DNA from: a virus | Length of the DNA stretch: 37,656 nt | Strand: one strand, 5' to 3' | Virus record (IMG/VR): IMGVR_UViG_3300031933_000229 | Coordinates: 1-37,656 of that record | Shown here: piece by piece, positions 329 to 16,852 of the stretch | Layout: each line of letters begins with the position of its first letter | Position numbering within the stretch: the stretch's first letter is position 1 | Notes under the pieces: generated by a model | Told to the model about the DNA's origin: nothing | Database searches by the model: none | Seen by the model: the letters and a program-made list of their open reading frames with translations, nothing else | Made by a program: the position numbers and the translations under genes

Positions 329-1330
329 TCATCCAAGAAACAAACGACGCATCAGCCTAAACGTATTTGCATGTCCGGCATGACCAATCCATGATCTAGC
401 TGAAAGCAGCAGCCTATCGCGGCTCAACTTGCCTTTTCTATACAGCAGCACCTTCCGTCTCATTTTACGCACAGAATCCTTACGCAACAAGCGATGCGTT
501 GGCCATATTTTATAGCCCAAGAAATCCAGGGCGCGGCCTCTACTGAGAGCCACAGGGAAAACCTGAGTTTTACTATTGGTGGCCAGTCGCAGCCTGTCGA
601 CCAGAAATTGCTCAACACTCACTCGCACCTGCTGAAGGTGATCCTTACTATGATGCACAACAATAAAGTCGTCCATATAACGCACATAATGTCGCTCACG
701 CAAATCCTGCTTAACAAATTGGTCCAGCTCATGCAAGTAGATATTCGCAAATAGCTGGCTTGTCAGGTTGCCGATGGGGATACCAACACCGTCCGTTGAG
801 TCAACAATGCCATCCAGTAGCCACAGGGTGTCTCGACAGGCGATCCTCTTGCGCAGTAAAGACTTGAGCACTTCATGATCAATACTGGCGAAGTAATGGT
901 GAATATCGGCTTTCAATACGTATGCCTTGCCATACTGTCGCTGTACCGTTCGCAACAGAGATTGCGCTTTGTCGGCTCCAGCATGGGTACCCCTCCCTAC
1001 ACGGCATGCGTAGCTGTCGGAAATGAATCTGGCCTCCCATATTGGCTCAATTGCTGCGACCAAGGCATGCTGCACAACTCGATCACGGAACGGTAACGCG
1101 GCCACCGTTCGCAGCTTTGGCTCGTAAACAAAAAATTCTCGATACTTGCCCGTTTGGTAGGTTTTCCACATCAGTTCGTTTTGCAGCTGGATCAAATTCT
1201 CTTCAAGGTGTGCCGAAAAGCGCAGCACTTCAGCCTTGTAGCGCTTGCCCTGTCGCGCACGCAGATAGGCAGCATGTAGCGCCTCGAAGGAGTAGATCTG
1301 CTGGTAGATATTTTTGTATGTTTTTGCCAT
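329..1330 (-). CDS. DGR reverse transcriptase
   Basis: This 333-aa reverse transcriptase copies the template-repeat RNA with adenine errors in a diversity-generating retroelement. Motifs in order: a motif-A aspartate in LKADIHHYFASID (D142), the DGR-type domain-4 sequence GIPIGNLTSQ (183-192, where retroviral or group II RTs have QGxxxSP), the catalytic YMDD (218-221), and a thumb-proximal FLGYKI (270-275). The IGxxxSQ signature together with an adjacent TR and avd makes the DGR assignment firm. The start at 1330 is chosen because the homologous region begins there (MAKTYKNIY) and a GGA-type ribosome site precedes it. An upstream in-frame start at 1480 would read through non-coding spacer. 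It is the last gene before the prophage right end. Confidence 0.95.
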   Translation of the reverse strand: MAKTYKNIYQQIYSFEALHAAYLRARQGKRYKAEVLRFSAHLEENLIQLQNELMWKTYQTGKYREFFVYEPKLRTVAALPFRDRVVQHALVAAIEPIWEARFISDSYACRVGRGTHAGADKAQSLLRTVQRQYGKAYVLKADIHHYFASIDHEVLKSLLRKRIACRDTLWLLDGIVDSTDGVGIPIGNLTSQLFANIYLHELDQFVKQDLRERHYVRYMDDFIVVHHSKDHLQQVRVSVEQFLVDRLRLATNSKTQVFPVALSRGRALDFLGYKIWPTHRLLRKDSVRKMRRKVLLYRKGKLSRDRLLLSARSWIGHAGHANTFRLMRRLFLG

Positions 1331-1488
1331 GTTAATTCCAAAAGAGCGGCAGAGCCGGAGGGTCACCAAAAGGTTACTACACCAACTCTGCCTGTTTATG
1401 TTTTTCGGCCAAAGCCGAGGACTAGATATCCTTTTATTGTCGCACTGGAACAGCCCGCGTGCGGACTGAACTTCTGGCATGATGTAAG
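1331..1488 (-). ncRNA. Putative DGR RNA spacer between TR and reverse transcriptase
   Basis: These 158 bases have no supported gene. In the well-studied Bordetella phage DGR the transcript downstream of TR and before the RT gene is a structured part of the RNA that primes cDNA synthesis. The position and length here fit that role, but I have not folded it, so this is inference from family knowledge. Confidence 0.4.
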
Positions 1489-1604
1489 AGCGGGGCGGAA
1501 GCCGATATTGCTGTTCGCATTCGAGCGGGCGTTATTGAGGTTGAGCATGAACACTCCGGCATTCGTGCCATTGTTCCAGTTCCCGCCACGGATCGGCAAC
1601 CGCT
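1489..1604 (-). repeat. DGR template repeat (TR)
   Basis: This 116-bp template aligns without gaps to 2029-2144 (offset exactly 540). There are 17 differences, at 1508, 1509, 1514, 1520, 1521, 1535, 1536, 1541, 1542, 1562, 1563, 1566, 1572, 1575, 1580, 1581 and 1593. Every one is a T on the + strand, i.e. an A in the TR sense RNA. 17 of 27 adenines differ and 0 of 89 other bases differ. In the frame of the target gene the TR is rich in Asn codons (AAY), the usual DGR design that allows many residues and avoids stops. Homology ends abruptly at both sides. Confidence 0.97.
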
Positions 1605-1637
1605 ATATAATATCTAGCCCTTCAATTATGCTGCCAA

Positions 1638-1979
1638 TTACTGGCGAACCGACTTTATCCAACCGCCAACCATGCGGCCAATTTCATCGAGCATTTTGCT
1701 CCACACTTCGTACTTCTTAAACGGTAAATAACCCAGCGTTTTGGCCATGCGCACCTGCGATCTCAGCAGGTCAAGTTCGGCGTCCAAATCCTGAAGTGTC
1801 GTCTTCTTGTAATAACGCCGGCTACATACGACAATTAGTCGCAATAGCCGCCACAAGCTCTGACGGATCTCCTGCGATAGTACGTGGCGTTCCGACTTCG
1901 GGAACTGCCGCAACGCCACGTAACCGTAAGAGATCATATCTTCGGTCTTTTGCTTAACAGCTAAATCGCTCACAGACAA
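1638..1979 (-). CDS. avd: DGR accessory variability determinant (Avd)
   Basis: Avd is a small basic, mostly helical protein that forms a pentamer and works with the reverse transcriptase and the template RNA in mutagenic homing. This product is 113 aa and all-helical in appearance. It has the family pattern of aromatic residues followed by FPKSERHVLSQEIR (about residues 26-39), a long LWRLLRLIVV helix (43-52) and a C-terminal helix with VWSKMLDEIGRMVGGW. Its place between the VR-bearing gene and TR matches the mtd-avd-TR-RT order of Bordetella phage BPP-1. The first start is TTG at 1979. A GTG at 1973 has a better-spaced GGGG ribosome site and may be the true start. Confidence 0.9.
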   Translation of the reverse strand: MSVSDLAVKQKTEDMISYGYVALRQFPKSERHVLSQEIRQSLWRLLRLIVVCSRRYYKKTTLQDLDAELDLLRSQVRMAKTLGYLPFKKYEVWSKMLDEIGRMVGGWIKSVRQ

Positions 1980-1984
1980 TACCC

Positions 1985-1998
1985 CGCGCTATCGCGCG
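1985..1998 (-). other. Hairpin/cruciform downstream of VR
   Basis: On the sense strand CGCGC and GCGCG enclose a GATA tetraloop (5-bp all-GC stem), inside a run that also contains the palindrome TATCGCGCGATA (1990-2001). It lies about 31 bases beyond the 3' end of VR. GC stems with a tetraloop shortly after VR enhance retrohoming in studied DGRs. The position fits; function here is inferred. Confidence 0.5.
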
Positions 1999-2016
1999 AT
2001 AAACAGATTACAGACA

Positions 2017-3096
2017 TCAAAGCACAAAAGCGGGGCGGAAGCCGATAGCGCTGCTCGCAGGCGAGCGGGCGTTAGCGAGGCCGAGCATGAACACTCCGGC
2101 AACCGCGCCATAGTACCAGCCCCCGCCACGGAGCGGCAACCGCTCACCGACATTGCGCGCATAGATGTAATCGCCGCCAAGGCCACTGCCTGCCGGGGCT
2201 AGGCCGAGCTGCAACAGCCGCTGCGGCACGGTAATGCCAGCATCGGCGGCCATGGACTCAAACACGCCAGCGGCATACGTGCTGCCATCCGACTGGCTAT
2301 CAACAACAGTATCGATCTGAACGCTGCCAGCTCCTGTTGCACCTGTTGCATCATATTTCAGTGTGCCTGCTGTACCCGGGTCGACTAACGAACCGTCGGC
2401 CGCTGCAATCGCTTTCCATAGCACACTAACTGCAGACTGATCCTTTGTATTGTCGGCTGCGTCATTGTCTGCCAGAACCTGGAGTTCACCATCGTCAATG
2501 CGCAGACCGCCTGACCATTCGTAAACATTGCCGTCAAGGTCGAAAATCCCATCCGGTGTATGATCATGGCTCCACGTTGCCGGGCCGCTGCCTGTTGCGG
2601 TCCGGGCGGTGCCGCTGGTGCCGAGGACAACGCCATCCTGCGTCAAACGACCAACCTCGTGTTTTTGATCAACATCGCGGCCGTAGTTATTGTTGCCACG
2701 CGGCATCGTGCCGTTTTTCCAGCTCCATAGCGCAATGGCCGCCCACTCGGCGTTGGTCATCAGGTGCCAGCCAGCGCCTTTATCCTTGCAGCGGGCCAGG
2801 GCGGTATCAAAATCGACATAGGTAGCCGGATCATGCCCCGGCAGCGACAGGGCCCGGCCATCGTGGACGGTTGCCTGATATTTACCGATAAAAATCGAGT
2901 TCTTTGCCACGCCATTAACGATAAATGCCGGATGCACGCCTGTACCCAGCGCCGGGTCGACATCCTCAAGATTAAACTTGGGGATCTCGACCATCACGCT
3001 CGGATAGCCCTTGTCATCGTACATCACGGTGTTTTTGCCACCGCTGGCCGCTTCAACGCTTTGGCGCAGGGCATCGGGGGTAGAAATAGTCAACAT
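2017..3096 (-). CDS. DGR-diversified phage receptor-binding protein (CLec/FGE-like fold)
   Basis: This 359-aa protein is the DGR target and probably the tip adhesin of the tail. Its C-terminal half resembles the formylglycine-generating-enzyme/C-type-lectin fold: WHLMTNAEWAAIALW (about 109-123), FDLDGNVYEWSGG (about 184-196), then RGGGWYYG (323-330) and the terminal GFRPA (352-356). The variable region lies in the last 42 residues, the ligand-binding face in known DGR proteins such as Mtd and TvpA. The ATG at 3096 follows a GGAG site. It is the last structural gene of the tail operon, after the tail-fibre gene, consistent with surface exposure. The present VR sequence differs from TR, so the system has been active in this lineage. 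Confidence 0.92.
   Translation of the reverse strand: MLTISTPDALRQSVEAASGGKNTVMYDDKGYPSVMVEIPKFNLEDVDPALGTGVHPAFIVNGVAKNSIFIGKYQATVHDGRALSLPGHDPATYVDFDTALARCKDKGAGWHLMTNAEWAAIALWSWKNGTMPRGNNNYGRDVDQKHEVGRLTQDGVVLGTSGTARTATGSGPATWSHDHTPDGIFDLDGNVYEWSGGLRIDDGELQVLADNDAADNTKDQSAVSVLWKAIAAADGSLVDPGTAGTLKYDATGATGAGSVQIDTVVDSQSDGSTYAAGVFESMAADAGITVPQRLLQLGLAPAGSGLGGDYIYARNVGERLPLRGGGWYYGAVAGVFMLGLANARSPASSAIGFRPAFVL
2029..2144 (-). repeat. DGR variable region (VR) in target gene
   Basis: This is the recipient copy of the template repeat at 1489-1604 and encodes residues 318-356 of the 359-aa target. The 17 base differences give 11 substitutions relative to the TR translation: I322L, N326G, N328Y, N329Y, T331A, N332V, N339G, N341A, N346P, N348S and N350A, with no stop. 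The 19 bases at the 3' end of the sense strand (2029-2047) are GC-rich and identical to TR, as expected for the initiation-of-mutagenic-homing part. Confidence 0.97.
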
Positions 3097-3448: not shown

Positions 3449-4597
3449 CTAATCCCTGTTGGTGGCGGCCACGGTGTAGCGCACCAGCACGTTGTCGGCA
3501 CGGCCGGTCATGCCGACCTTAAAGCCGTTATCCTGTTTGTCATAGGGGTACAACTCACCAACTGCCGAGCGATCCGTCGCCGACTCAACGGTCAGTAACA
3601 CGTCGTAGTCCTGTCCAGCTGGCATGGCGTAATCCAGAGCCACGTAGGCACTGGGGAGCGCCGTGGTCATCCAGGAGCGTGGCTCCCTGATCTCCCGATT
3701 GTCCGTCAGCGTCACAGCGCTGATATCGTTGCCGGTATTGCCAGCGGGGATTATCACGGTATAGAGCAGCATCGCTGCATCGGGCACCGTCTCCCCAAGC
3801 AGCACGCCATATTCACCCGCGCCTAAATCAGCCAGGCAGGCATAGCGGGTGATATCATCAGTGCCAGGGTTTTCAGGAATCGGCACTTCCAGATCATCAT
3901 CGGCAAGCTTGGCATAGCGGCCATCAATCCAGGCGATACTCTCACCACTACCGACGGTGCCGGTCTCGCTCAGATGCAGGTAACGAACATCGGCTTTTGT
4001 AAGCACAAAGCCCTGCACCACATGCTTATTCTTAATGGTGGTGGTGCCTTGGGAAAACACCCGCTGGCGCACATCATCTATGGCCTTTTGGTTTTGTGAT
4101 GCCCGCGCTAATGCCTCTTGCATGCCTACCGCCAGCGGATTGGTCTGCTCACCAATATACTCGCGTGTTGCCAGTATCAACGACGGATCGACTGACAGCG
4201 AGACCGCCGCCGCACTGCCGACATCGAGATAGAGGCGCAGGAACAAGTCCTTGGCGCTACCGGATTCCAGCACCGGTTTGTATGTTTCTGGAAACTTTGC
4301 TATAGCGAACAGGTCACCATCAGCATCAAATAATCCGACTTCACGGATGTACCAGCCTCCGGCTTCCGGCGGCACAACACCTTCGGCGATCACGCGGCCG
4401 GGATTCGCGGCATCAGTCCGTACCGTACTTAAGCTGGCACGCCATTTCTCACTGACCAGTGATGTTTGGCCGACGCTGGGCGTGTAGCTTCCATCGCCGA
4501 CGGCAATGTTAGCCAGATTGATCGAATCCTCGCTGGCCGCAGCAGCCGCCAACTTGGCTTGGCCGATGGTGGTTATTAATGTGTAATATTCATTCAT
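3449..4597 (-). CDS. Phage tail-collar fibre protein (gpH-like)
   Basis: This 382-aa protein opens with the tail-collar/fibre N-terminal domain: YYTLITTIGQAKLAAAAAS at 4-22, the INLANIAVGDG block at 26-36, and GGWYIREVGLFDADGDL at about 80-96. That domain attaches fibres to the P2-type baseplate. A central SVDPSLILATREYI segment is also typical of P2 H N-termini. The C-terminal half is not recognised. A GGGAGG site precedes the ATG at 4597. The gene follows gpI, the usual P2 order (J, I, H). It is short for a fibre, which suggests that receptor binding is handed to the DGR-diversified protein downstream. Confidence 0.85.
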   Translation of the reverse strand: MNEYYTLITTIGQAKLAAAAASEDSINLANIAVGDGSYTPSVGQTSLVSEKWRASLSTVRTDAANPGRVIAEGVVPPEAGGWYIREVGLFDADGDLFAIAKFPETYKPVLESGSAKDLFLRLYLDVGSAAAVSLSVDPSLILATREYIGEQTNPLAVGMQEALARASQNQKAIDDVRQRVFSQGTTTIKNKHVVQGFVLTKADVRYLHLSETGTVGSGESIAWIDGRYAKLADDDLEVPIPENPGTDDITRYACLADLGAGEYGVLLGETVPDAAMLLYTVIIPAGNTGNDISAVTLTDNREIREPRSWMTTALPSAYVALDYAMPAGQDYDVLLTVESATDRSAVGELYPYDKQDNGFKVGMTGRADNVLVRYTVAATNRD

Positions 4598-4606: not shown

Positions 4607-5311
4607 CTACTGTAGTGGGTAAACATCTACTGTTTCGCGCTGCAACAGAGCTGCAGCCACGTATAATGTTGCAAGACCATCAAGCACAGTGGCGGCTTCC
4701 GGCGACCACGATGCGGGATAGATTGACACGATGTCTGTATGCTGGATTGCACCGCCGTAATAGAGTGCGCCCGTGGTGGATAGTTCGGTGATGGCCCATG
4801 GCTCGATGCAGATACACTCGGATGATTGAATGGCGGCGGCAAGCTTGATCTGACTAGCTAGGCACGAGCGGACTTTGACCTCAAAGTGTGTCCGTACGTT
4901 TGCAGCCCCTTTAGCTGCCCGCTCGGCGGCATCCCATACATCAACATTGCCAGCTTCCGGGGTCAGGGTGAGTCGTGCCGTATAAGGATCACCGCCAAAC
5001 TGCCACCACTCTTCAATCTGCACCTCACCGACACCGGCTGATGCCAGCGCCCTACGAACCGCACCGACAGTGCCCTTAATGCGATGTATGGCCATGCTTG
5101 CTGCAACCACGGCACGCTTTGTCTTTTCAGGCCAACTGCTGTCCCAATCATCGACACTCAATGCCCAAGCGAGCCAAGGCAACGCTTCAATTGGACAGGT
5201 TTGCGGATTCCACAAATCCCCCACTGGCACCGGCACATCACCAATGCGCTCGGTGCTGGCTTCAGTGGCCAGCTCAAACGGGGTGGCGTTAGGTGGCAGC
5301 AGGCTACTCAT
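4607..5311 (-). CDS. I: Baseplate/tail protein I (P2 gpI-like)
   Basis: This 234-aa protein has the P2 gpI signature: LLPPNATPFELA at the N-terminus, then PVPVGDLWNPQTCPIEALPWLAWALSVDDW (split across about 27-56) and a GTVGAVRRALASAG helix. gpI joins gpJ in the wedge of the P2 baseplate. The start overlaps the end of gpJ by eight bases, indicating translational coupling. The family is usually about 170-240 aa. Confidence 0.9.
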   Translation of the reverse strand: MSSLLPPNATPFELATEASTERIGDVPVPVGDLWNPQTCPIEALPWLAWALSVDDWDSSWPEKTKRAVVAASMAIHRIKGTVGAVRRALASAGVGEVQIEEWWQFGGDPYTARLTLTPEAGNVDVWDAAERAAKGAANVRTHFEVKVRSCLASQIKLAAAIQSSECICIEPWAITELSTTGALYYGGAIQHTDIVSIYPASWSPEAATVLDGLATLYVAAALLQRETVDVYPLQ

Positions 5312-6197
5312 CCGTGCCCCCGGTGGTCACGGTTATGGCCGTGCAGTAGGCAGCAGCGGTAGCAGGAACCGTCAGACTGGTGGTTGGTTCTGCCAGCTCA
5401 ACCCGTTGCACACCCGGCTGATGGAGAGCGGCATACACACCACTCAGGGTGACATCGTGGCCCAAAGCGTGATGATCGGATGTATATTTTGTGACGGCAT
5501 CCTCGGCCGCCTGGCGGACCACATCGGCATCGGGGCCGGGGTAGACATACAGCGTGGCATCAATGGTGTAAGTGGTAATCGTTGCCGCCTGCACCGTCAC
5601 CTGATCAGTCAGCGGCCGCACGGTTTCAACGTTGAGTGCGGCGGCCACCGCATCGAGCAACGATTGATCAGCGGTTCCATCAGCTGTAGTGCTAAGCACT
5701 GTCACCTGCACTTGGCCCGGCACCGGGCTTGCGATCGCTACATCTTTAACAGTGGCCGAAGCCGACAAGGCATGAAACACATAGCTGCCAGTGCTACCGG
5801 CGGTAGTGATCGCCTCTGGTGCCAGCTGTACGCGGCGGCGTAAGGCATCATCGGCTTCATAGCTGGCGGTGATCGGTGGCACCGCGCCCGGATCTCCGGC
5901 ATCAATCAGTAACCTGGATACACCGTAAAGGGCGGCAAGGTTATCCAGATCAGCTCCTTTGGCGTAAGGCAACATCACCGCCCGAGCGGTGTCGTTAACC
6001 CGCTGGCGGATCAGCAATTCGCGGTAGGCAGCCACTTCTAGAATCTTATAGGCCGGGTCGCTTTCCACCGGGGCATAAAATTCAAGGTCACGCGACTGCA
6101 GGTCGGACAACATGGCGGCCAAAATTATTTCATAGTCCAGCGCCTCGACTACCTGCGGCGCGGGCAGCTGGCTTAAATCAATGCCGGTTTCACTCAT
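5304..6197 (-). CDS. J: Baseplate assembly protein J
   Basis: This 297-aa homologue of P2 gpJ / Mu gp47 is a wedge protein of the contractile baseplate. The typical N-terminus IDLSQLPAPQVVEALDYEII is followed by the aromatic SDPAYKILEVAAYRELLIRQ region, then VNDTARAVMLPYAKGADLDN leading into LAALYGVSR. The alanine- and threonine-rich second half is the beta-sandwich part. It overlaps gpW upstream by four bases (ATGA type) and gpI downstream. Confidence 0.93.
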   Translation of the reverse strand: MSETGIDLSQLPAPQVVEALDYEIILAAMLSDLQSRDLEFYAPVESDPAYKILEVAAYRELLIRQRVNDTARAVMLPYAKGADLDNLAALYGVSRLLIDAGDPGAVPPITASYEADDALRRRVQLAPEAITTAGSTGSYVFHALSASATVKDVAIASPVPGQVQVTVLSTTADGTADQSLLDAVAAALNVETVRPLTDQVTVQAATITTYTIDATLYVYPGPDADVVRQAAEDAVTKYTSDHHALGHDVTLSGVYAALHQPGVQRVELAEPTTSLTVPATAAAYCTAITVTTGGTDE

Positions 6198-6529
6198 AAA
6201 ATCAATCCCTCCAATACCAGCTCACTGCCGTCGGGCAGATAGCTTCCATACAGGTTTAAAATCAATTGGCCAGCGGCAGTGATTTGCCCGGAAAGATCTG
6301 TCAAAGACACGCGAGGTTCCCAGGTGTCAAGCGCTTCAGCGGTAGCCGCATAGATCTCGATCAGGTTGGCCCGATTGAGCGGTGCATCAATGAGTTCAGG
6401 CAGGCGACTGCCGTAATCGCGGCGCATGACGCGAGTGCCAATACGGGTAGTCAAAATGTCACGGATAGACTGTTGTACATGCTGCTTGCCGGACAGCTCT
6501 GTTCCAGTGATTGCGTCCATACCTTTCAT
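6194..6529 (-). CDS. W: Baseplate protein W (gp25/lysozyme-like fold)
   Basis: This 111-aa protein belongs to the gpW/gp25 family, the conserved baseplate wedge core. It shows QHVQQSIRDILTTRIGTRVM (17-36), the family MRRDYGSRLPELID motif (35-49), and a beta-rich C-terminus ending in DGSELVLEGLIL. It overlaps gpD by four bases and gpJ by four bases, in a tightly coupled run. Despite the old 'lysozyme' label there is no enzymatic role. Confidence 0.92.
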   Translation of the reverse strand: MKGMDAITGTELSGKQHVQQSIRDILTTRIGTRVMRRDYGSRLPELIDAPLNRANLIEIYAATAEALDTWEPRVSLTDLSGQITAAGQLILNLYGSYLPDGSELVLEGLIL

Positions 6530-7500
6530 GGTGCCTCTCCGTCGATGGTGCAGCGGTAGCCCTGACCATTAATTGTATGGGTGACTGTCTTCATCAGCCA
6601 CGATCCGACAAGGCCGCTACGACCGGCTGTCACTTGAAGGTCTCCTTCAGCCATTAACAGGTTGTTTCCTGGCAGGGTGGCGCTGATGGTTGCCGCGCCT
6701 CTCTCAAAGGCAGCCAGCTTTGCACTTGCTGCAGATTTGGCCGTGGAGGCATCAGGATAGGCGTGGCGAATGACATAGACGGGCTGACCGCTGCCAATGG
6801 TTACAATAATGTCCTGGGCGCTTTCGATGTCATGCCAGCGAGCCTGGACACTGCCATATTTGCCTCGCTCGGCCATGGTGACATGCCACCTTGTCAGGTC
6901 GTTTTCTACTGCAGTGACAGGAGCGATGGTAATGCCACTGGCACTTTTCAGCTCACCACGAGGAACAAACAACAGGGTTCCATTGGCCGGTTTTGATACC
7001 GCGCCACGTTCTCTGGCCAAACGGGTCAGCAAGTGCAGATCTGATTCTTCGGTCTGGTCAATATGTTCCAGGAGCATATTGGTGAACGCCTCTGAAACTT
7101 TTGCTGTGTAGCCGTGCTCGGCGGCAATGGTCGTGACCAGATCGCCGATGGTGATCTGATCCCAGCTGCGCGATTTTGTTGCCTTGAATGCCTGACGCAT
7201 GTTGGCGGCTTTGGCACTTATGGTCAGCCTGTTCGGACGGCCAGAGATCTCCACTTCGTCAACCACATAAAGACCCATCTTGGCCAAGCCGGTTGAAACG
7301 TAGCCGATTGAGACGTCCAGCTCTGCGCCGGTGCGTGGCAACTCAATATGCGGTGCGCGATCGTCCAGGGTTATTTTGACCGTGTCGCTGTCCATGCCAG
7401 CCTGATCGGTGATATCCATTGACACAAACCGATCGCGGATCTGCGCGGTGACATCTGTGCTGTCGGCGAGTATTTTAAAATCTGGTGTCATCAGTCCCAC
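6526..7500 (-). CDS. D: Late control protein D / baseplate hub
   Basis: This 324-aa homologue of P2 gpD belongs to the T4 gp27-like hub family. Recognisable parts: PDFKILADSTDVTAQIRDRF at the N-terminus, SMDITDQAGMDSDTVKITLDD, and LHLLTRLARERGAVSKPANG in the middle. The hub receives the spike (gpV) and connects to the tail tube. It overlaps the X gene by ten bases and W by four. The P2 name 'late control' reflects its interaction with Ogr; no such regulator is seen here. Confidence 0.92.
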   Translation of the reverse strand: MGLMTPDFKILADSTDVTAQIRDRFVSMDITDQAGMDSDTVKITLDDRAPHIELPRTGAELDVSIGYVSTGLAKMGLYVVDEVEISGRPNRLTISAKAANMRQAFKATKSRSWDQITIGDLVTTIAAEHGYTAKVSEAFTNMLLEHIDQTEESDLHLLTRLARERGAVSKPANGTLLFVPRGELKSASGITIAPVTAVENDLTRWHVTMAERGKYGSVQARWHDIESAQDIIVTIGSGQPVYVIRHAYPDASTAKSAASAKLAAFERGAATISATLPGNNLLMAEGDLQVTAGRSGLVGSWLMKTVTHTINGQGYRCTIDGEAP

Positions 7501-7694
7501 AACCTCACAACGGTCTGCTCTTCAGTAACGCTAATATCCGGCAGGGTGACAATCAGACCACCCGGCAAAACGGGGCCGTATGCCGAAAGGCCCGGATTGG
7601 CAACAAGCACTTGCTCAACAATGCCTGACGTGGATCCATAGTAGCGGTGACAAATGGCGTCGAGGACATCACCGTCTTTGGTGCGGTATTGCAT
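7491..7694 (-). CDS. X: Tail protein X (LysM-like)
   Basis: This 67-aa protein has the P2 gpX pattern: YRTKDGDVLDAICHRYYG at the N-terminus, which is a short LysM-like motif, then VLVANPGLSAYGPVLPGGLIVTLP (positions about 28-51). gpX-type proteins help organise the baseplate hub and can bind peptidoglycan-like ligands. The start codon abuts the last base of the U gene and the end overlaps gpD, in the canonical P2 order U-X-D. Confidence 0.9.
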   Translation of the reverse strand: MQYRTKDGDVLDAICHRYYGSTSGIVEQVLVANPGLSAYGPVLPGGLIVTLPDISVTEEQTVVRLWD

Positions 7695-8086
7695 CAGCTA
7701 TCCTCCCCATAGAATCCAAGACGCAGGGCAAATTCTTGCTTACGTGGGATACCGTTGGCGAAGAACGTCCCCTGTTTTTCGTCAATGCTCTCGATGCACC
7801 ACTTGCCCCATACTTTGCCGGTGCCGTCGGTCATCATTTTCGGCTGGCCTGTTCCTGCGACTTCGCGCATCTTGTCGATCTGCTTTAAACCGCCTTTAAA
7901 TTCTGGATAAATGATTCCTTCAAGGGTGATTGTTTCATCACCTTTACCAACAAACTGGCGCGCCGGAGCACGCCCGATACGTTCCTGGATCGGCCAGCGG
8001 TAAGCAACGCTACGCCGCAGGTTTTGATAGGCTGCCGTATCCAAAGAAAAGCGAAATTCACCCAGAGCCATCATGACTTCAGTCAT
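7694..8086 (-). CDS. U: Tail terminator protein U
   Basis: This 130-aa P2 gpU homologue caps the contractile tail or joins the tail to the baseplate hub. It shows MMALGEFRFSLDTAAYQNLRR at the start, then ERIGRAPARQFVGKGDETITLEG and GQPKMMTDGTGKVWGKWCIE, and ends FALRLGFYGED as the family does. The ATG at 8086 follows GGAAATCTCT and lies within the end of the tape measure gene; an upstream in-frame ATG at 8116 lacks a ribosome site. Confidence 0.9.
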   Translation of the reverse strand: MTEVMMALGEFRFSLDTAAYQNLRRSVAYRWPIQERIGRAPARQFVGKGDETITLEGIIYPEFKGGLKQIDKMREVAGTGQPKMMTDGTGKVWGKWCIESIDEKQGTFFANGIPRKQEFALRLGFYGEDS

Positions 8087-10250
8087 AGAGATTTCCTCTC
8101 TGTCTGGCCTCTGCACGGCGCTGTTGCTCAGTCAAATGGTCAGTGACTATTTGAGCCACGGCCTGTTCGTCCATGCCGGGTGTGGCGTGGATGGTGATCG
8201 GCGCTGAGATGCTGGTTGATTGATTCACGGCCTGTTGCGCTGGCTGCGCACTGGCGATCTCGGCGGCCAAACCTGCAGGACTGACATTTGTGCGCTGGCG
8301 CTGAGACCGAGGTGACATGCTGGCACCGACTTTCACGCCAGAGTCAGAACGACTATCGCCTGGAAGCTGATCATCAACACCTGGTTGAGGATCGTCGTCA
8401 TCTCCGAACAGATCACCGATGAATCCAGCCAGTTTTTGTCCGGCTTTAAACAGCAAGCCGACAGGGCTACGCTCCCAGATCTTGGTCAAAAATCCCACGC
8501 CCTGACTGAACAGGCTCTTAATGCCGGACCACATGGAACTGAAGAACCCTGTAATCGGCTGCCAATAGTGAACAATCAGCGCCGCAGCCCCACCCAGTGC
8601 AGCGACAATAAGCCCGATCGGATTGGCCATCATTGCCGCGTTAAACGCCCACTGGGCTGCCGCTGAAGCCATCAACGCGCCTTTAAACAGGGTGAACCCG
8701 ACAACGGCTCCGGTGATAAACTTACTTACTGCTGGATATTTTTCGACAAATATTCCGATATGGCCAACCATGCCGGTAATCGGACGTAACACCGCATTTA
8801 CAGCCGGAAGCAAAGTCCCGGCAAAGGCCAGACCAAGTGTCCTGACATTGCTTGTGAAAAGAGTCAGTTGCCCGCGGCCATCGTCCATAAACTTCTGATA
8901 GCTGGCATCGACAATGCCCCTGGAACTGTCAGCGACATCCTTTTGTGCCTCTGATAGTTCGTGCAACTTTGGGCCAAGCAGTGACACCATCCTGATCCCT
9001 TCGTCACCGAAGACACGTTGCAGATCATCAATGGTGGATTGCTCCATGTTGTCAAAACCACCGATGGCGTCTGACATGGCCTGAAGCGTGGCAATGACAT
9101 CAAGGCCACCATCGAAACCACGCGACATATCGAAACCAAACTCTTCTGAAGCCTTGGACAAGTTACGGAAAGTTGCAGTCAGAGCCGTTCCCGCCATGCT
9201 CCCCTGTAGTCCGGCAGAGTTCAACGCACCGAGCAGTGTTGCACCCTGCTCCAGGTTGACGTTGTATTGCGCCAAGGCCGGGGTTGCCATTTTGAACGAT
9301 TCGCCAAGCTGTGAGAAATCCCGTAGCTGGAATTTGAACTGTGTTTTTGTCAGCACATCGCCAATGCGCTGCAGACGCTCAACGGTAGAGCCTTCAAGTG
9401 CCCCACCGAGATTATTAAAGGTGGTCGCCACAACTTCACCAACCTGCTCCGCAGCACCTTCAGTGATGGTTGAAACTTTTGAAACAATTTCAGATCCGGC
9501 ACGGGCCGTTGCCGCATCCAGCCCGGCAGAGTTCAGGGCATACTCGATATTGAGGAGATCGGTTTCATTGGCAAGGCTTTTACGGGCGTAGGCCAAGGCA
9601 TGACGGCGCGATTTCGCCAGTTCCTTGCCGACGTTTTCGGCGTTCATGACGGTGGATAATCGTGTCGCACTGCGGCCAAAATCCATGGCCTCGCCGACCA
9701 GACTACCGGCACCATAGAGCAGGCCTGCGGCACCGAGCATTTCACCACGCATATCCATGACACGGCCTTTGGCGGCATCACGTTGCGACATACGCTTTTT
9801 CAGGCGGGCGTACTTTGCTTCGGTTCTTTCAATTTCGCGGCCAAGGCGAGTGTATTCATGGGCAACATCTTTAACGCTGACACCAGAATTAACCATGGCC
9901 CGTTGGCTTTTCTGCAAATTGTCCCGCTGTTTTTCAAGAGCCGTTGACAGCTTTTCAGATTGCCGTTGAGCCACCTCAAGATCTTTTGCCAGGCCGCTGT
10001 TTTTAGAATCTTTTCGCAAAGCAGCCTTGACCCTCAAGACTTCTTTTTGCGCTTGGCTTAATTTCAACCGGGTTTTCTCAATGGCGACCTGGTCTTTTTC
10101 AAAACGCTCGATCAGCCCACGCTTACCGGACAAATCTTTTATTGCTGCGCCAAGCGTGTTAATCTGTTGTTTAGCGCCACTGATCGCACCAGGAAAACTG
10201 GCGGCCAGCGTGGCACCAACGACTACGCCTATTGATAAGGATTTGTCCAT
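8079..10250 (-). CDS. T: Tail tape measure protein (P2 gpT-like, TP901 core)
   Basis: This 723-aa protein sets tail length and travels through the tube. It has a coiled-coil N-terminal third (about 40-165), the conserved TP901 core around residues 190-480 (LSTVMNAENVGKELAKSRR, EYALNSAGLDAATARAGSE, VATTFNNLGGALEGS, ATALTATFRNLSKASEEFG-like text), and hydrophobic segments at about 520-565 (AVVGFTLFKGALMASAAAQW, NPIGLIVAALGGAAALIVHY). The C-terminus is low-complexity and ends in a QAVAQIVTDHL helix. A GGAAGA site precedes the ATG. The start codon region is overlapped on the other strand by the start of a small rightward gene (10249-10479). Confidence 0.93.
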   Translation of the reverse strand: MDKSLSIGVVVGATLAASFPGAISGAKQQINTLGAAIKDLSGKRGLIERFEKDQVAIEKTRLKLSQAQKEVLRVKAALRKDSKNSGLAKDLEVAQRQSEKLSTALEKQRDNLQKSQRAMVNSGVSVKDVAHEYTRLGREIERTEAKYARLKKRMSQRDAAKGRVMDMRGEMLGAAGLLYGAGSLVGEAMDFGRSATRLSTVMNAENVGKELAKSRRHALAYARKSLANETDLLNIEYALNSAGLDAATARAGSEIVSKVSTITEGAAEQVGEVVATTFNNLGGALEGSTVERLQRIGDVLTKTQFKFQLRDFSQLGESFKMATPALAQYNVNLEQGATLLGALNSAGLQGSMAGTALTATFRNLSKASEEFGFDMSRGFDGGLDVIATLQAMSDAIGGFDNMEQSTIDDLQRVFGDEGIRMVSLLGPKLHELSEAQKDVADSSRGIVDASYQKFMDDGRGQLTLFTSNVRTLGLAFAGTLLPAVNAVLRPITGMVGHIGIFVEKYPAVSKFITGAVVGFTLFKGALMASAAAQWAFNAAMMANPIGLIVAALGGAAALIVHYWQPITGFFSSMWSGIKSLFSQGVGFLTKIWERSPVGLLFKAGQKLAGFIGDLFGDDDDPQPGVDDQLPGDSRSDSGVKVGASMSPRSQRQRTNVSPAGLAAEIASAQPAQQAVNQSTSISAPITIHATPGMDEQAVAQIVTDHLTEQQRRAEARQRGNLYD

Positions 10251-10479
10251 GCGTCAATTCTTCCCGGCAAATATCATTTTTATTGCCATCTGGTGTGGAG
10301 CAACCTTCATCGCGGTACCACATTGTGAAGCGTTGTCCACCGCTTTCTTTCTTGGATTTATCTGTGCTCTTTTTCTCTGCATCCCAACAGCTTTTACAGT
10401 GGGGATCTTGACCAACCTGATGCATCAGCTTGTTCAACCGAAAGAGCGAACCACATCAAAGCCAGCAATTCTCGGTTAA
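10249..10479 (+). CDS. Small two-TM membrane protein on the opposite strand (possible moron)
   Basis: This 76-aa product starts with an ATG eight or so bases after an AAGGA site. It has two hydrophobic stretches, NIIFIAIWCGATFIAV (8-23) and FFLGFICALFLCIPTAFTVG (about 33-52), and a short basic tail (QPKERTTSKPAILG). It reads against the tail operon and fills the gap between E/E' and the tape measure gene. An intrinsic terminator for the same strand follows eight bases after the stop. The ribosome site, two TM segments and terminator together support a real, separately transcribed gene, perhaps lysogen-expressed (superinfection exclusion or similar). No homologue is recognised, and the start overlaps the tape measure ATG by two bases on the other strand. 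Confidence 0.6.
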   Translation: MRQFFPANIIFIAIWCGATFIAVPHCEALSTAFFLGFICALFLCIPTAFTVGILTNLMHQLVQPKERTTSKPAILG

Positions 10480-10486
10480 ACCTGCT

Positions 10487-10525
10487 CTGTGCTGGAGGAT
10501 CTCTATGGCCTCCAGCACAGTTTTT
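10487..10525 (+). terminator. Rho-independent terminator of the rightward gene
   Basis: A perfect 12-bp stem, CTGTGCTGGAGG (10487-10498) and CCTCCAGCACAG (10509-10520), with a 10-base loop is followed directly by TTTTT (10521-10525). On the opposite strand no T-run follows, so it terminates rightward transcription and protects the E gene from antisense reading. Confidence 0.85.
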
Positions 10526-10530
10526 CATCG

Positions 10531-10907
10531 CTACTTCTTCTTGTGAACATCCTTAATAACGTTCCACCAGTCCATCAGTTCCTCGACTTCCATCCCAATC
10601 AAATCACTGTAAGACCAATGGGTGTAGCTATTGACCAGGACGACTATTCGCTTGAGGTCTCCTGGTCGGGCGTCAAAAAACCGCGATAGGTATCCTGCAG
10701 TGATTGGTAATCAATAAGATCAAGCTCTTCAATAACCGCTGGCGATACTTCAGTAAGGTTTGCAAACAGACACACTTCCTGTTGAGCTTCGCTGGCTTTC
10801 ATTTTTGTCACTGCCAGTTGATCTTTAACGCGAGGACGGCGAATAGTGATGGCCTGGTGTTCCTGCCCATCGACGGTGACGGGATATTTCAAAATGATTT
10901 TTTTCAC
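10531..10907 (-). CDS. Tail assembly chaperone E+E' (programmed -1 frameshift product)
   Basis: The first 78 codons are shared with gpE. At the slippery heptamer T TTT TTG (10680-10674) a -1 shift opens a 47-residue extension (DARPGDLKRIVV..., containing SYSDLIGMEVEELMDWWN) that ends at 10531, giving a 125-aa fusion. This is the E/E' arrangement of P2, equivalent to lambda G/GT: the frameshifted form binds the tape measure protein while the short form keeps it soluble. The extension's aromatic 'MDWWN' end and its position directly before the tape measure gene fit the family. The shift is inferred from the sequence, not measured. Confidence 0.85.
10644..10907 (-). CDS. E: Tail assembly chaperone E (unshifted product)
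   Basis: This 87-aa P2 gpE-like protein has KIILKYPVTVDGQEHQAITI at the N-terminus, a RRPRVKDQL segment, and a helical SPAVIEELDLIDYQSLQDTY region (55-74) typical of the family. It is the main product; a minority of ribosomes would shift into the E' frame. It lies 27 bases downstream of the tail tube gene. The zero-frame tail after the slip site is only nine residues (TPDQETSSE). Confidence 0.88.
   Translation of the reverse strand: MKKIILKYPVTVDGQEHQAITIRRPRVKDQLAVTKMKASEAQQEVCLFANLTEVSPAVIEELDLIDYQSLQDTYRGFLTPDQETSSE
10674..10680 (-). other. Slippery heptamer for -1 frameshift
   Basis: On the coding strand the sequence is TTTTTTG, read in zero frame as (GG)T TTT TTG, which fits the X XXY YYZ rule exactly. 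The -1 frame downstream is open for 47 codons and encodes a recognisable E' extension. Confidence 0.85.
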
Positions 10908-10934
10908 TGCTTTAAACTCCTTTTAAAGGTCTAT

Positions 10935-11438
10935 TTACATACCAAGGGCGGCGCGCTGACCAGCCAGCTGGTCGACACCACCGATGATGCGGATCATGTT
11001 CTCGGCGTCGATTTCGTGGATCACCTCGCCGTCAAGGGTCAGCTTGTAGTAGCGCACGGCGATTGTGCCTTTGAGCGTGGCACGTTCTCCAGGCTTCCAG
11101 GTCCCCATATCCTGTTCTTTGAGCATGCCGCGCAGGTTGATGACGGCCGCTTTCACGTCGCCTTCCTCGGTTTCGATCGCGCCTCTGAACACCAGAGGAA
11201 CTTGGTTTCCTGGAGCCAGGCCGAACTGCTTGAGGATGTCGCTGTCGTATTTCGACAAGGTAAAACCGGCCTCCAATTTCTCCATACCGACTTCGAGTTC
11301 AACCGGGGCATCAAGCCCGCCGCCCCGGTATTCGTCGGTTTTCATTGTGAGCTTGGGCGGGGTGAGTTCGTCGGTGACTCCGGCATAGCCACGACCATCA
11401 ATGAACAGGTTCATGTTTTTCAGGATTTCGGCAATCAT
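10935..11438 (-). CDS. FII: Major tail tube protein FII
   Basis: This 167-aa homologue of the P2 tail tube protein begins with IAEILKNMNLFIDGRGYAG, continues with an LTPPKLTMKTDEYRGGGLD loop, and has a DAPVELEVGMEKLEAGFTL strand region, followed by GERATLKGTIAVRYYKLTLDG and a C-terminal helix. It polymerises into the inner tube inside the sheath. The ATG overlaps the sheath stop by four bases. Confidence 0.93.
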   Translation of the reverse strand: MIAEILKNMNLFIDGRGYAGVTDELTPPKLTMKTDEYRGGGLDAPVELEVGMEKLEAGFTLSKYDSDILKQFGLAPGNQVPLVFRGAIETEEGDVKAAVINLRGMLKEQDMGTWKPGERATLKGTIAVRYYKLTLDGEVIHEIDAENMIRIIGGVDQLAGQRAALGM

Positions 11439-12628
11439 GCGAAGACCTCCTCAATGTAATCGTCTACCAGATGACTACGGAGCGTGATGTGCTCTGCCGG
11501 ATACGGCGGGGTGAAGTCAAAGTCAAAATAGACTTTACCGGCGGCGATCTGGTCGGCGGTGTTCAATTCTTCATTGGCCCAGCACTCACCACCAAGAATG
11601 GCCCCTTTGGCTTTGAGGTTGCGCAGGTAGGCGTTGACGCCTTCGAGAACATCTTCGACATAGGTCTTGGTGATGTTGCGATCGACAGCCCACAGATGGT
11701 TAACCAGGATGCTTTCGTTGATCATGTCTGCCGTGCGAACAACGCTGAGGAATGCCCACTTGCTGTCTGCAGACAGGGTGCGATTACCCCAAAGCCGATA
11801 GCCGTTCTGGTTGATGATGGTGGCGATGTTTTGCTCGTTGAGCAAATTGGCGCGGCTGTTGGCGTCGCCCAGAGTAAAATCAATAGCGCGGGTGGTACCG
11901 CCGATGCCGTACATTTCACGGTTGGACGGTGACCACCAGAAACCACGCTCGTTGTCGCTCTTGGCGATCATGCCAGCGACACGGGCTGATGCAGGTTGGT
12001 CAATGTAGGCGCTGGTGGTTTCGTCCCATACCTTGACACCAGGGTCGACGACATAGACTCGCTTGCTGCCAAAATCAGAAGCCCAGGTCTGTGCGTCTGT
12101 GTCGTTGGTATTGGGTCCGTCGGCAATGATGACGGCACGCATCTGATCGGCAATGCCAAGCAGTTCAGTAACAACCGGGTTAGCCAGTGTGGCAGGCCGT
12201 TGGCTGGTGAATCCCGGCGCGCAGAGGATCTTAGGCGCATAGCCAAGAATGGATTCTGCGGCAAGAAATGCCTGCACACCTTGATATTGCCCAGTACCGG
12301 CATCAACACCACCAACCACATTGGTCAGCGTGGCTGTTTCATCAGCGCCTTCGTCAACTCGGACAACAACAACGACGGCCCCACACTGGTCGAAGATAGC
12401 GTCCATAGCGTCAGGCAACGTGCCTGCACTATCACCTACAGTGTCAAGCTTGGCGGCTTCGGTGCGATTACCGGCAATGAGCACCGGCGTGTTAAGTGGG
12501 AATGCGGTTGCATCGGCATCAGGCGCGGTGCCGATCATGCCGATGACGCTGGAACGCACCGTGGTGATCGGGCGGATACCATCGTCGATTTCAAGCACCT
12601 CAACCCCATGCAAAAAGGTCTCAGCCAT
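11435..12628 (-). CDS. FI: Contractile tail sheath protein FI
   Basis: This 397-aa P2 FI homologue shows FLHGVEVLEIDDGIRPITTV (4-23), SSVIGMIGTAPDA, the conserved GFTSQRPATLANPV region in the middle, and the C-terminal NRTLSADSKWAFLSVVRTADM followed by AHEITLRSHLVDDY-type strands. It forms the contractile outer sheath. It overlaps the small gene upstream by eight bases and the tube gene by four. Confidence 0.94.
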   Translation of the reverse strand: MAETFLHGVEVLEIDDGIRPITTVRSSVIGMIGTAPDADATAFPLNTPVLIAGNRTEAAKLDTVGDSAGTLPDAMDAIFDQCGAVVVVVRVDEGADETATLTNVVGGVDAGTGQYQGVQAFLAAESILGYAPKILCAPGFTSQRPATLANPVVTELLGIADQMRAVIIADGPNTNDTDAQTWASDFGSKRVYVVDPGVKVWDETTSAYIDQPASARVAGMIAKSDNERGFWWSPSNREMYGIGGTTRAIDFTLGDANSRANLLNEQNIATIINQNGYRLWGNRTLSADSKWAFLSVVRTADMINESILVNHLWAVDRNITKTYVEDVLEGVNAYLRNLKAKGAILGGECWANEELNTADQIAAGKVYFDFDFTPPYPAEHITLRSHLVDDYIEEVFA

Positions 12629-12809
12629 TGGTTACCTCCGTTTTCTTGGTTGTTTTCAAATCACGCTTGATTTTTCCTTCAAGCAGCAAATATTTAGCCT
12701 GGCGCGATGACAGTGTGAGCTGAGTTCCTTCAGCCTGGGGGATGTTGTTCAGGTCGAAGGGTTTGACCACAATGTATTTGTCAGGCGCTGTCTTTGTTCG
12801 TTTTGCCAT
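12621..12809 (-). CDS. Small basic protein (DUF2635/Mu gp38-like)
   Basis: This 62-aa basic protein (MAKRTKTAPDKYIVVKPF...) is placed immediately before the sheath gene, where Mu and many contractile phages have a small DUF2635-type protein. Its PxAxGxxL-like middle (NIPQAEGTQLTLSSRQAKYL) fits that family loosely. Function is unknown. It is coupled to both neighbours by one- and eight-base overlaps. Confidence 0.7.
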   Translation of the reverse strand: MAKRTKTAPDKYIVVKPFDLNNIPQAEGTQLTLSSRQAKYLLLEGKIKRDLKTTKKTEVTNG

Positions 12810-13024
12810 CAGTAAACCTTTCCTTCATGTTCGCTATCGGGTGCGCCGCTGGTGGTTTCAACCACGGCATTTTCGACGATCTCTTCAATGATTCCTGCGC
12901 ACATGGCTTCCAACGCTGCATCGCGGTATTCCAGGGCGTCTGCATTGTCACTGCCCTGATAGGCGGCAACCTGTGCCATGTGGGCCTTAATTTTGTCACG
13001 CATGCTCGATGCATTCAGGGCCAT
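12809..13024 (-). CDS. Small hypothetical tail-region protein
   Basis: This 71-aa acidic, helical protein (SSMRDKIKAHMAQVAAYQGS, EYRDAALEAMCAGIIEEIVENAVVE) starts at an ATG with a GGAGT site that overlaps the last base of the spike gene. I do not recognise the family with certainty. Small proteins of this shape commonly lie between the gpV spike and the sheath in Mu/P2 hybrids. Confidence 0.75.
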   Translation of the reverse strand: MALNASSMRDKIKAHMAQVAAYQGSDNADALEYRDAALEAMCAGIIEEIVENAVVETTSGAPDSEHEGKVY

Positions 13025-13551
13025 CAGAACGACTCCTTTACGGTTGGTGAGATGTGCGGATGCGGCTTGCCGGTGTAGGTACACAGGCAGTCGCCCTGGA
13101 CGGAGCCTTTTACCGTTCCACCATCTTTGCCGATAACCTCAACGGTGCCTTTTCCGATGATCTGAACCAATCCTTCAGCAGAGACGATCAGCTTGCCGCT
13201 GTTGCGATCGTACTCAGCAAAACCACCATCCTTAAATTCGATGCGGCACTTGTCCCTGGTAGTTTCCGGTGCCGGGTAGCTGCTCTGGTAAATGGACGGC
13301 AGCACGACGCCCTGGGCCAGATCTCCACCGGGGCTGAGCACCATCACCTGTTCACCTGGTTCCGGTGCCCACCAGCTGCGATCTTCCCCGGCGCGGCGAG
13401 TCAGCCATGGCAGCCAGGTGGTGGTGATGTTGCCAATGGTGACGGTGACGCGAGCGGTAGCATCGTCGAGTTGCTTGATCGTGCCGACGCGCAGCACGTT
13501 GGCCAGGCGGCGCTCGATCTCTGTGACCCGGAAGGCCAGATCATCATTCAT
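13024..13551 (-). CDS. V: Baseplate spike protein V
   Basis: This 175-aa P2 gpV / Mu gp45 homologue is the membrane-piercing spike. The N-terminal helix FRVTEIERRLANVLRVGTI leads into an OB-fold with VTIGNITTTWLPWLTRRAGE and the WWAPEPGEQVMVLSPGGDL motif (about 65-83). Near-repeated strands (KLIVSAEGLVQIIGKGTVEV, IGKDGGTVKG) form the beta-helix. The ending has GKPHPHISPTVK, which resembles the metal-binding HxH tip of gpV. A GGAG site lies before the ATG at 13551, inside the end of the gp37-like gene. Confidence 0.92.
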   Translation of the reverse strand: MNDDLAFRVTEIERRLANVLRVGTIKQLDDATARVTVTIGNITTTWLPWLTRRAGEDRSWWAPEPGEQVMVLSPGGDLAQGVVLPSIYQSSYPAPETTRDKCRIEFKDGGFAEYDRNSGKLIVSAEGLVQIIGKGTVEVIGKDGGTVKGSVQGDCLCTYTGKPHPHISPTVKESF

Positions 13552-14083
13552 CGGCGGTGATCTCCACGTAATCGTCAATGTGTGGCGGACCGACATCCGG
13601 GGTGACACCGACATAGACGTCGGTGGGGATAATTCCATCGGCTACAAGATCTTCTTCGCTCATGCGGATGGTCTGCCGCCAGATGACAGCCCAGATTGCA
13701 ACGCCAGCTTTATCGATGGTGCCGCTGTAGAAATTCTGAGCGGTAACCTTTTGCGCGCCGCCCGTTTTTCCAAATCGACGTGATGGCAACCAGGCCACCA
13801 ATACGCTGACGATATTGCTTGAGCTGACCTCCTTTGGTAGGTTCGGCACATCTTTCGTCAACACGTAGGCGACCATCTGCAGGGTGACATCGCGGGATTC
13901 GTCATCGACTTCTTCAACACCAACCACACCCATGCTGGCGACATAGACAGCAGGAACTCGCGTTGCCAGTCGCTTAACTTCATCAAGATTAAAGCGGCCT
14001 GGATGCGTGGTGCAGGCTTTGAGGTCTGGCAGCTTTGCCTTGATGGCTGCGGCGACTGATGTGCTGAATTCGTTGATGGTCAT
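13544..14083 (-). CDS. Mu gp37-like tail protein (DUF1834)
   Basis: This 179-aa protein has the gp37/DUF1834 pattern: MTINEFSTSVAAAIKAKLPD at the N-terminus, VKRLATRVPAVYVASMGV, then DVTLQMVAYVLTKD and RRFGKTGGAQKVTAQNFYSG. It lies between the G-type morphogenesis gene and the spike gene as in Mu-like phages and is probably involved in the head-tail connection or tail completion. Confidence 0.82.
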   Translation of the reverse strand: MTINEFSTSVAAAIKAKLPDLKACTTHPGRFNLDEVKRLATRVPAVYVASMGVVGVEEVDDESRDVTLQMVAYVLTKDVPNLPKEVSSSNIVSVLVAWLPSRRFGKTGGAQKVTAQNFYSGTIDKAGVAIWAVIWRQTIRMSEEDLVADGIIPTDVYVGVTPDVGPPHIDDYVEITADE

Positions 14084-15346: not shown

Positions 15347-16372
15347 TTAGTCAAGCCACGGCACGACCAGGACTTCGACGGCCTTGTAGTTGGTGTTGCT
15401 TGCACCTGCGGCATTGCGCTCAGCCTCGATAACAGCTTTCGCAGCCGCACGGTTACTCGGCCCAACAACCAGCAGGACAGGCTGCAGCGCCAGCTTCTTT
15501 CCATAGTCACCGGGGATGGATCCCATGGCCGACATGGCGTCATCGAAATTTGTCGCGGTCAATTCAGCTTTGCTGCCGAAGGCCATCTGCCAGAAAGCGA
15601 AGCCAACATTGCAACGACTGTCGACACCGTATTGATATTCTTTCTTGGTGAAGACGCTCTGATCATCAGGGTTATCCATGGCGACAAATTCCGCCTTTTT
15701 GCGTTCCTGATAAATCAGCGGTTTGAGCGGTCGACGGGTGTCAAGCAGGAACCAGGGGTTTCCGGTACCGGCCTGCATATTGCTGACGCTGGTTTCGTTG
15801 CCGTCTGCGTCGATGACCGGGTGATCTGTGTCAAAGAAATATTGCCCGTCGTAGCACGTTGTCTCAAAACCGGCAGCAAGCAGGGCGAAGACCAGTTCGT
15901 CGGGATGTTCAGCAGCATTCTGTCCAAGCATCTCCATCATCGGCGTATATTGCCCGTACTGATCATCATCAATGTCATCACGGTCAACGCTGATCGTTGA
16001 TTCGAAAGACTTATTCTGAATGCTGTAGGAATGCAGCTTCAGGTTGTTAATCTGCCGGTCACCAATCCATTCACGCATACCGGGAATTTTACCGAGCCAG
16101 CCATAGTCATTGGTGCGGGTCGATGACGGGACAAGTGTGGCGACTTTTTGCCAGAGCGATGTCGGGCTTCCGAAACCTTTTTTAAAGGCAGCATTAAAGG
16201 CTCGCTTCAGGATGCCAAGGGTGCTGGCATTAATAGTCAGCGCGGGTGCCGCGCCACCACCGAGCAACATGGACCAGGTGAACGGCTCGGCCAGGGCCGG
16301 ATCGGCAAAGGCAATGCTGCCGAACAGTGCGGCAATCATTACCAGGGTGAACAGAATCAGTATCTTTTTCAT
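15347..16372 (-). CDS. Major head subunit gpT (major capsid protein)
   Basis: This 341-aa Mu gpT-type capsid protein shows TLGILKRAFNAAFKKGFGSP (about 50-69), SSTRTNDYGWLGKIPGMREW (about 82-101), and the N-terminal-arm and core motifs INNLKLHSYSIQNKSFEST. Later come TYDGQYFFDTDHPVID-like text and GVDSRCNVGFAFWQMAFGSK. The start at 16372 has a perfect GGAGG site. Unusually, residues 1-28 look like a signal peptide (MKK, a hydrophobic LILFTLVMIAALFGSIAF core, then AFADP), which I would not expect on a capsid protein; it may be a hydrophobic leader cut off by the prohead protease. Confidence 0.92.
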   Translation of the reverse strand: MKKILILFTLVMIAALFGSIAFADPALAEPFTWSMLLGGGAAPALTINASTLGILKRAFNAAFKKGFGSPTSLWQKVATLVPSSTRTNDYGWLGKIPGMREWIGDRQINNLKLHSYSIQNKSFESTISVDRDDIDDDQYGQYTPMMEMLGQNAAEHPDELVFALLAAGFETTCYDGQYFFDTDHPVIDADGNETSVSNMQAGTGNPWFLLDTRRPLKPLIYQERKKAEFVAMDNPDDQSVFTKKEYQYGVDSRCNVGFAFWQMAFGSKAELTATNFDDAMSAMGSIPGDYGKKLALQPVLLVVGPSNRAAAKAVIEAERNAAGASNTNYKAVEVLVVPWLD

Positions 16373-16441
16373 AATGGGTTCCTCCATTGAGTTAAGCGGA
16401 TGAGTTGTCAGCGTGTGTGCCTGCAGCTGTGTTCCTGATGA

Positions 16442-16852
16442 TTAACGGAAATCGACCCAGACGCCCTGGGCGTCAACGTCAAAAACTTCACCGGCAATAC
16501 TGCGCGTTCCAGTACCGTCAGTCTTGGCGACGGTCTGATCGTCGACGATGTAACAAGCGCTGCCAATGTCGGCGGTGGTGATTTCGTCGGTGTCGGCAGA
16601 GTTGGCAAATTGGAAAATGCCCTTTTCGATATCCACCCGCACATCACCGGCGGCACCTTCGCTGTTGTCGACATACTCTTTACAGCGGCCTGCACCGACC
16701 AGAGTTGTGGCTGCGGCTCCAGGGGTTGCGTTGCCATTCGCATCAATGGCGACAAGCGAGCCGGTAAAGAATTTCTTTGCAGCGGCGGCGAGCAGGCTCA
16801 GCAGATCTCCTGAGCGGGCCTTGGTGTTACGATCTTGAGTTAATGCTGGCAT
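16442..16852 (-). CDS. Capsid cement/decoration protein (DUF2190-like)
   Basis: This 136-aa, glycine- and alanine-rich beta protein lies between the protease/scaffold and the capsid gene. It contains KKFFTGSLVAIDANGNATPG, VGAGRCKEYVDNSEGAAGDV, FQFANSADTDEITTADIGSA and CYIVDDQTVAKTDGTGTRSI followed by AGEVFDVDAQGVWV, the layout of DUF2190 capsid cement proteins that sit on the capsid surface. Position supports a role on the head. Confidence 0.75.
   Translation of the reverse strand: MPALTQDRNTKARSGDLLSLLAAAAKKFFTGSLVAIDANGNATPGAAATTLVGAGRCKEYVDNSEGAAGDVRVDIEKGIFQFANSADTDEITTADIGSACYIVDDQTVAKTDGTGTRSIAGEVFDVDAQGVWVDFR

Follow-up and report, generated by a model that had tools for sequence, protein, structure and literature searches.

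The 37,656-bp stretch of DNA analyzed here, referred to as the window, raises the question of whether the two repeats, the accessory gene, and the reverse transcriptase (RT) near one of its ends form a working diversity-generating retroelement (DGR) and, if so, what this element diversifies and how its target is told apart from its template. The window is an entire IMG/VR record, which is not necessarily a complete phage. We consider it very probable that it carries a complete, probably functional DGR of the BPP-1 type and that this element diversifies a C-type-lectin tail-tip protein of a Mu-like (transposable) myophage. The features discussed below are listed in Table 1.

Table 1. Position and basis of the features described in the window
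Feature	Position	Strand	Basis or remark
DGR reverse transcriptase, 333 aa	329..1330	-	YMDD intact, IGNLTSQ motif
TR-RT spacer (Sp), putative part of DGR RNA	1331..1488	-	Position; has GCCAGAAG
TR (template repeat)	1489..1604	-	Alignment and repeat search
avd, accessory variability determinant	1638..1979	-	PF22296, phrog_3206; exact start codon uncertain
Hairpin/cruciform CGCGC[GATA]GCGCG, GRNA loop	1985..1998	-	Counterpart of BPP-1 hairpin (PMC3240598)
7-nt unit array, about five units	1997..2028	-	Between VR and hairpin; periodicity kept in relatives
VR (variable repeat)	2029..2144	-	17 A-only differences from TR
DGR target (variable) protein, 359 aa	2017..3096	-	FGE-type C-type-lectin fold (predicted); C terminus encoded by VR
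Tail-collar fiber protein (Phage_tail_fib N terminus)	3449..4597	-	PF12571, E 3e-47
P2-type tail/baseplate block	4607..13638	-	gpI, gpJ, gpW/25, gpD, gpX, gpU-like, tape measure, sheath, gpV
Mu-like head block	15347..21860	-	gpT, gpI protease, gpF, Mu portal, large terminase
MuB-like ATPase and MuA-like transposase	28385..31342	-	phrog_296, E 4e-50; phrog_310, E 1e-62

An earlier note on this DNA had described a TR and a VR that align over 116 bp without gaps and differ at 17 positions, all of them TR adenines, and realignment gave the identical result. On the sense (minus) strand, 17 of the 27 TR adenines and none of the 89 other TR bases are changed (hypergeometric P = 8.3e-14), and a repeat finder independently returned the same pair (1486 to 1604 and 2026 to 2144). 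VR reaches nearly to the stop codon of the target gene, in whose frame the changes fall in about 12 codons; in TR these are mostly AAY (Asn), where an adenine change alone cannot make a stop. The similarity between TR and VR stops sharply past a GC-rich segment, and no mismatch block like the 21-bp IMH/IMH* of BPP-1 is recognizable. An exact pattern search with the TR/VR core gave no match in viral contigs and species-representative genome contigs. A gene duplication with ordinary divergence would likewise leave two similar repeats, the one fact in its favor; it is refuted by the position of all 17 differences at adenines (P = 8e-14) and by the RT and Avd genes that adjoin the repeats, and its probability is negligible.

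The RT matched PF00078, phrog_1423 (E 6e-146), and the BPP-1 bRT complex (PDB 8ub7; E 9e-72). It carries the motif IGNLTSQ, and its YMDD, mutation of which would mark an inactive enzyme, is intact and invariant across a 22-member alignment. The open reading frame at positions 329 to 1480 encodes 383 aa and is probably over-extended. Its 333-aa reading (MAKTYKN...) aligns with BPP-1 bRT from residue 1 over the whole length, and the RT probably starts at position 1330 rather than 1480, with the extra 50 residues probably corresponding to untranslated TR-RT spacer. If the RT begins there, the segment between it and TR is the candidate spacer. Avd matched PF22296 (bAvd; E 1e-34) and phrog_3206, annotated as "Avd protein of DGR." These matches agree with the earlier note, which had placed Avd, TR, and an RT with YMDD and an IGxxxSQ motif in the BPP-1 order, and the element proved to be complete, with Avd, TR, VR, a full-length RT, and an FGE/C-type-lectin target.

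A phmmer comparison aligned residues 4 to 359 of the target with TaqVP (5vf4; E 1e-95), and matches to PF03781 and phrog_2889 (E 1e-148) were also obtained. TaqVP, encoded by a Thermus aquaticus prophage, is a DGR variable protein with a solved C-type-lectin structure (5vf4; PMC6328139). The C terminus of the window protein (...GFRPAFVL) matches the invariant C terminus of TaqVP, and the protein is predicted with confidence to have a C-type-lectin fold. The target gene is the last of the tail block and adjoins the tail fiber gene; gene position and homology suggest that the protein is located on the virion as a tail adhesin, and it is probably a receptor-binding protein. The TaqVP DGR has the same layout as that of the window (PMC6328139), with homology of the targets over their whole length; the two differ in host and carrier phage, and the VR residues differ as expected.

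The BPP-1 DGR (mtd/avd/TR/brt) shares with the window the gene order, the adenine-specific change from TR to VR, Avd, a homologous RT (42% identity), an FGE/C-type-lectin target at the tail end, and a GRNA-loop hairpin after VR. The BPP-1 hairpin lies 4 bp after VR, whereas that of the window lies 30 nt past it, and the list of sequence matches to the window target does not include BPP-1. The phage that carries the BPP-1 element is not Mu-like. In BPP-1, the hairpin after VR is required, and phage DGR hairpins have been reported to have GC stems of 7 to 10 bp and GRNA loops and to lie 4 to 34 bp after VR (PMC3240598). The window hairpin (folding z = -3.2) has a stem of 5 bp, below this reported range, and the stem is the same in the nearest relative, L053, a prophage of the Desulfuromonas sp. 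isolate AUK168 (a metagenome-assembled genome [MAG]; contig JAGGYC010000109.1). Other relatives have hairpins of the same kind with different stem sequences. By analogy with BPP-1, the window hairpin would be the target-recognition stem-loop.

Whether the element is active was addressed by comparison with relatives. A second copy of the exact window phage was not found. L053 is 92% identical to the window in RT, 95% in Avd, 88% in the target, and 93% in TR (108/116), with flanking DNA at about 78%, and comparison of the two VRs shows differences in 18 of the 26 TR-adenine columns that they share and in 1 of the 82 shared non-adenine columns. Between 19 pairs of DGRs with nearly identical flanks, which are not independent of each other, the VRs differ at 285/484 A sites and 13/1839 non-A sites. 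Across 73 related loci, 930 of 1876 TR adenines and 42 of 6857 other positions differ between TR and VR; the detector used to find these loci itself demands an adenine bias, so these pooled counts are descriptive. Because VR divergence between relatives is confined to TR adenines, the window lineage can be said to diversify by adenine-specific homing, and on this comparative evidence it is active. Present-day homing by the window copy would be expected from BPP-1 biology.

It is conceivable that the DGR was recently killed or silenced, so that its anatomy is complete and homing has ceased in the window copy. A hairpin stem of only 5 bp fits this explanation, as does the finding of only one copy of the exact phage. 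However, all proteins are full length with intact catalytic residues, VR holds no non-adenine change at all, and L053, with an equally short stem, shows adenine-confined divergence. We therefore regard a dead element as unlikely and a functional one as much the better reading.

The carrier has Mu-type head genes (gpT [E 7e-129], gpI protease, gpF, and Mu portal), MuA-like transposase and MuB-like ATPase genes, and genes for a P2-type contractile tail (sheath, gpI, gpJ, gpW/gp25, gpD, gpV, and the tail-collar fiber), so that the earlier note was right to describe it as Mu-like and its tail as P2 type. The DGR sits at the end of the late block, after the tail fiber gene. No close relatives of the transposase were found in viral contigs. 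The combination of a gpT head, a P2-type tail, and a DGR is ordinary phage mosaicism. Two further features lie toward the ends of the record: a small helix-turn-helix reading frame (MFSEDLIKLALKIMSCSQKELASQLGVSPTQISKWKKG...) at 108 to 272 (+), downstream of the RT and on the other strand, and, at the opposite end, an anti-repressor-like gene at 36404 to 37114 (+; phrog_5060, E 6e-11), which is not on the strand of the late genes.

The earlier note could name no previous description of such an element where the carrier is transposable and its tail is P2 type. As cited in PMC5883640 (its reference 30, Toussaint 2013), DGRs on transposable phages have been known since at least 2013. Activity has been measured for the DGR of the transposable hankyphage (PMC6199706, PMC12135933) and shown for those of the transposable phages Mushu and FP_Lagaffe (PMC5883640), and Avd and RT are also present in the Mu-like phage YPCBV-1 (PMC9769972). 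Database relatives also combine MuA with a DGR, in some cases together with gpT. When 24 DGR-bearing records were tested, 6 had a long match to MuA-like transposase and 2 had gpT. The Vibrio phage vB-Vv-ZX4290 has MuA, gpT, Avd, and RT in a single GenBank record; another record with MuA, gpT, and a DGR (L004; 37,033 bp) is the same locus as one in the genome of Pseudoruegeria aquimaris strain CECT 7680 (L057). In light of these prior examples, the claim of novelty falls, and the window DGR, including its presence on a transposable phage, is one further member of an already known class.

Within this class, hankyphage, Mushu, FP_Lagaffe, BalMu-1, YPCBV-1, Bise, and vB-Vv-ZX4290 are likewise transposable (mostly Mu type) and carry a DGR, with RT identity to the window below 62%. 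The gpT head is common to the window, vB-Vv-ZX4290, and the L004 record. Some of the others have different heads or tails; vB-Vv-ZX4290 lists a tail-tip protein and no sheath, and the DGR target of Mushu, unlike that of the window, is a Hoc-like protein. As in the window, a similar cassette of target, Avd, and RT lies beside P2-type tail genes in Pseudoalteromonas ACA1 and ACA2 and Vibrio VHML, although ACA1 belongs to the P2 group, has an integrase, and is not transposable. L053 has the same tail and DGR module, with a tail fiber 88% identical to that of the window, but its carrier has a lambda-type portal, an HK97-type capsid, a gpA terminase, and tyrosine integrases; searches of the L053 genome for gpT and of its contig for a MuA-family transposase found neither. 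Since the window and L053 have the same block on different backbones, the tail and DGR block is common to a transposable and an integrase phage, which suggests that this cassette is exchanged as a block between phage types.

The same relationship could be read as a sign that the window is chimeric, the assembly having fused a Mu-like phage to the tail and DGR end of another phage, given that its closest tail and DGR relative is on a phage of a different type, whose head is lambda type and which has tyrosine integrases. Against this, MuA, gpT, and a DGR also occur together in the L004 record and within the one GenBank record of vB-Vv-ZX4290, and the late genes of the window are all on one strand in the expected order. 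An assembly artifact is thus very unlikely, even less likely than a dead element, and an intact mosaic phage with a DGR remains our reading.

In the window and most of its relatives, VR is separated from the hairpin by a series of short units, each with YCTG at its end, that recur at intervals of 7 or 8 nt. In the window, this array reads TTTG.TGCTTTG.ATGTCTG.TAATCTG.TTTATCG and includes the stop codon of the target; an example from a relative (L017) is CTAATCTG.GGATCTG.ATCCCTG.TAATCTG. Among 19 non-redundant DGRs, 4-mer self-matches after VR numbered 40 at lag 7 and 18 at lag 8; the corresponding values were about 4.5 and 4.2 for shuffles and 3 and 1 for the DNA that follows TR. The statistic was fixed first and then applied to a new set of 23 non-redundant DGRs, which had been retrieved with an RT profile. 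In this held-out set, matches at lags 7 and 8 together numbered 64 after VR, versus 10.5 +/- 4.1 in shuffles (maximum of 27 in 300 shuffles) and 3 after TR, and TCTG was counted 40 times downstream of VR but a single time downstream of TR. In 14 of the 23, VR was followed by a GRNA-loop hairpin whose stem had 6 bp or more; none had such a hairpin after TR. When all 43 non-redundant DGRs were considered, 28 had a chain of at least four units after VR and none had one after TR, compared with about 0.8 of 43 in shuffles. In related arrays, compared in pairs that are not independent, core bases change less than linkers (1311/7941 versus 3948/9141). At two loci (L285 at 1210 and L082 at 8541), a second VR is served by the same TR and each has its own array; in L285, the linkers have changed and the YCTG cores and their spacing are kept. 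The array is missing in a Lachnospiraceae group, where the hairpin nearly adjoins VR, and in Bise and YPCBV-1.

The published descriptions of DGR target sites that were searched name a (GC)14 element, IMH, and a stem-loop and mention no array (PMC3240598, PMC12875486); the second of these papers rebuilt the BPP-1 DGR in E. coli. No description of a YCTG array was found in the openly accessible papers searched. We give an even chance to the proposal that, in this clade, DGR target sites have a further undescribed cis element in addition to the GC-rich 3' end, IMH, and the hairpin, namely, an array of four to six units (consensus about TAATCTG, core YCTG, spacing of 7 or 8 nt) that takes up the space from VR to the hairpin. 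The BPP-1 IMH has only two such units, CCTG and CTTG, with CCTG among the positions altered in IMH*, and under the cis-element proposal it would be a reduced, two-unit version of the array. More speculatively, the array may be recognized unit by unit, by pentameric Avd or by the RT-Avd-RNA complex. If it is a true recognition element, it offers a cheap and concrete test of what the homing complex recognizes at the target and not at the template.

By analogy with BPP-1, the avd-TR-spacer region would be transcribed, RT and Avd would bind the spacer and copy TR with errors opposite adenines, and the mutated cDNA would take the place of VR. This replacement may be guided by the GC-rich 3' end common to TR and VR together with the elements found after VR only, namely, the unit array and the GATA-loop hairpin. 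The outcome would be variation at the affected codons of the probable receptor-binding protein, by which new receptors could be tried.

Other interpretations of the units were dropped. Pairing in the RNA with the CAGA motif after TR is contradicted by loci in which CCAGAAG is constant where the units change (L051 and L242) and by one with TCTG units and no CAGA (L060). A role in supplying stop codons in all frames was rejected, as the conserved part is YCTG and not TAA or TGA. When the dimer TAATCTGTAATCTG was tried as a DGR marker in viral contigs, no more than 2 of the 80 stretches followed a VR that could be detected, and the dimer alone is therefore not diagnostic. At three loci, judged by eye, a CCCTTT-type array (CCCTTTTA-like, with units of about 7 to 8 nt) lies at the same place; these DGRs are from a Poribacteria MAG (L081), an unclassified bacterium MAG (L082), and a Chromatiaceae MAG (L088). 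On the template side, GCCAGAAG lies at 1471 to 1478 (-), 10 nt past TR, and most of the related DGRs likewise have a motif of the CCAGA type after TR; in the 23 held-out DGRs, CAGA occurred 17 times after TR and once after VR. This motif may belong to the structure of the RNA spacer to which RT and Avd would bind.
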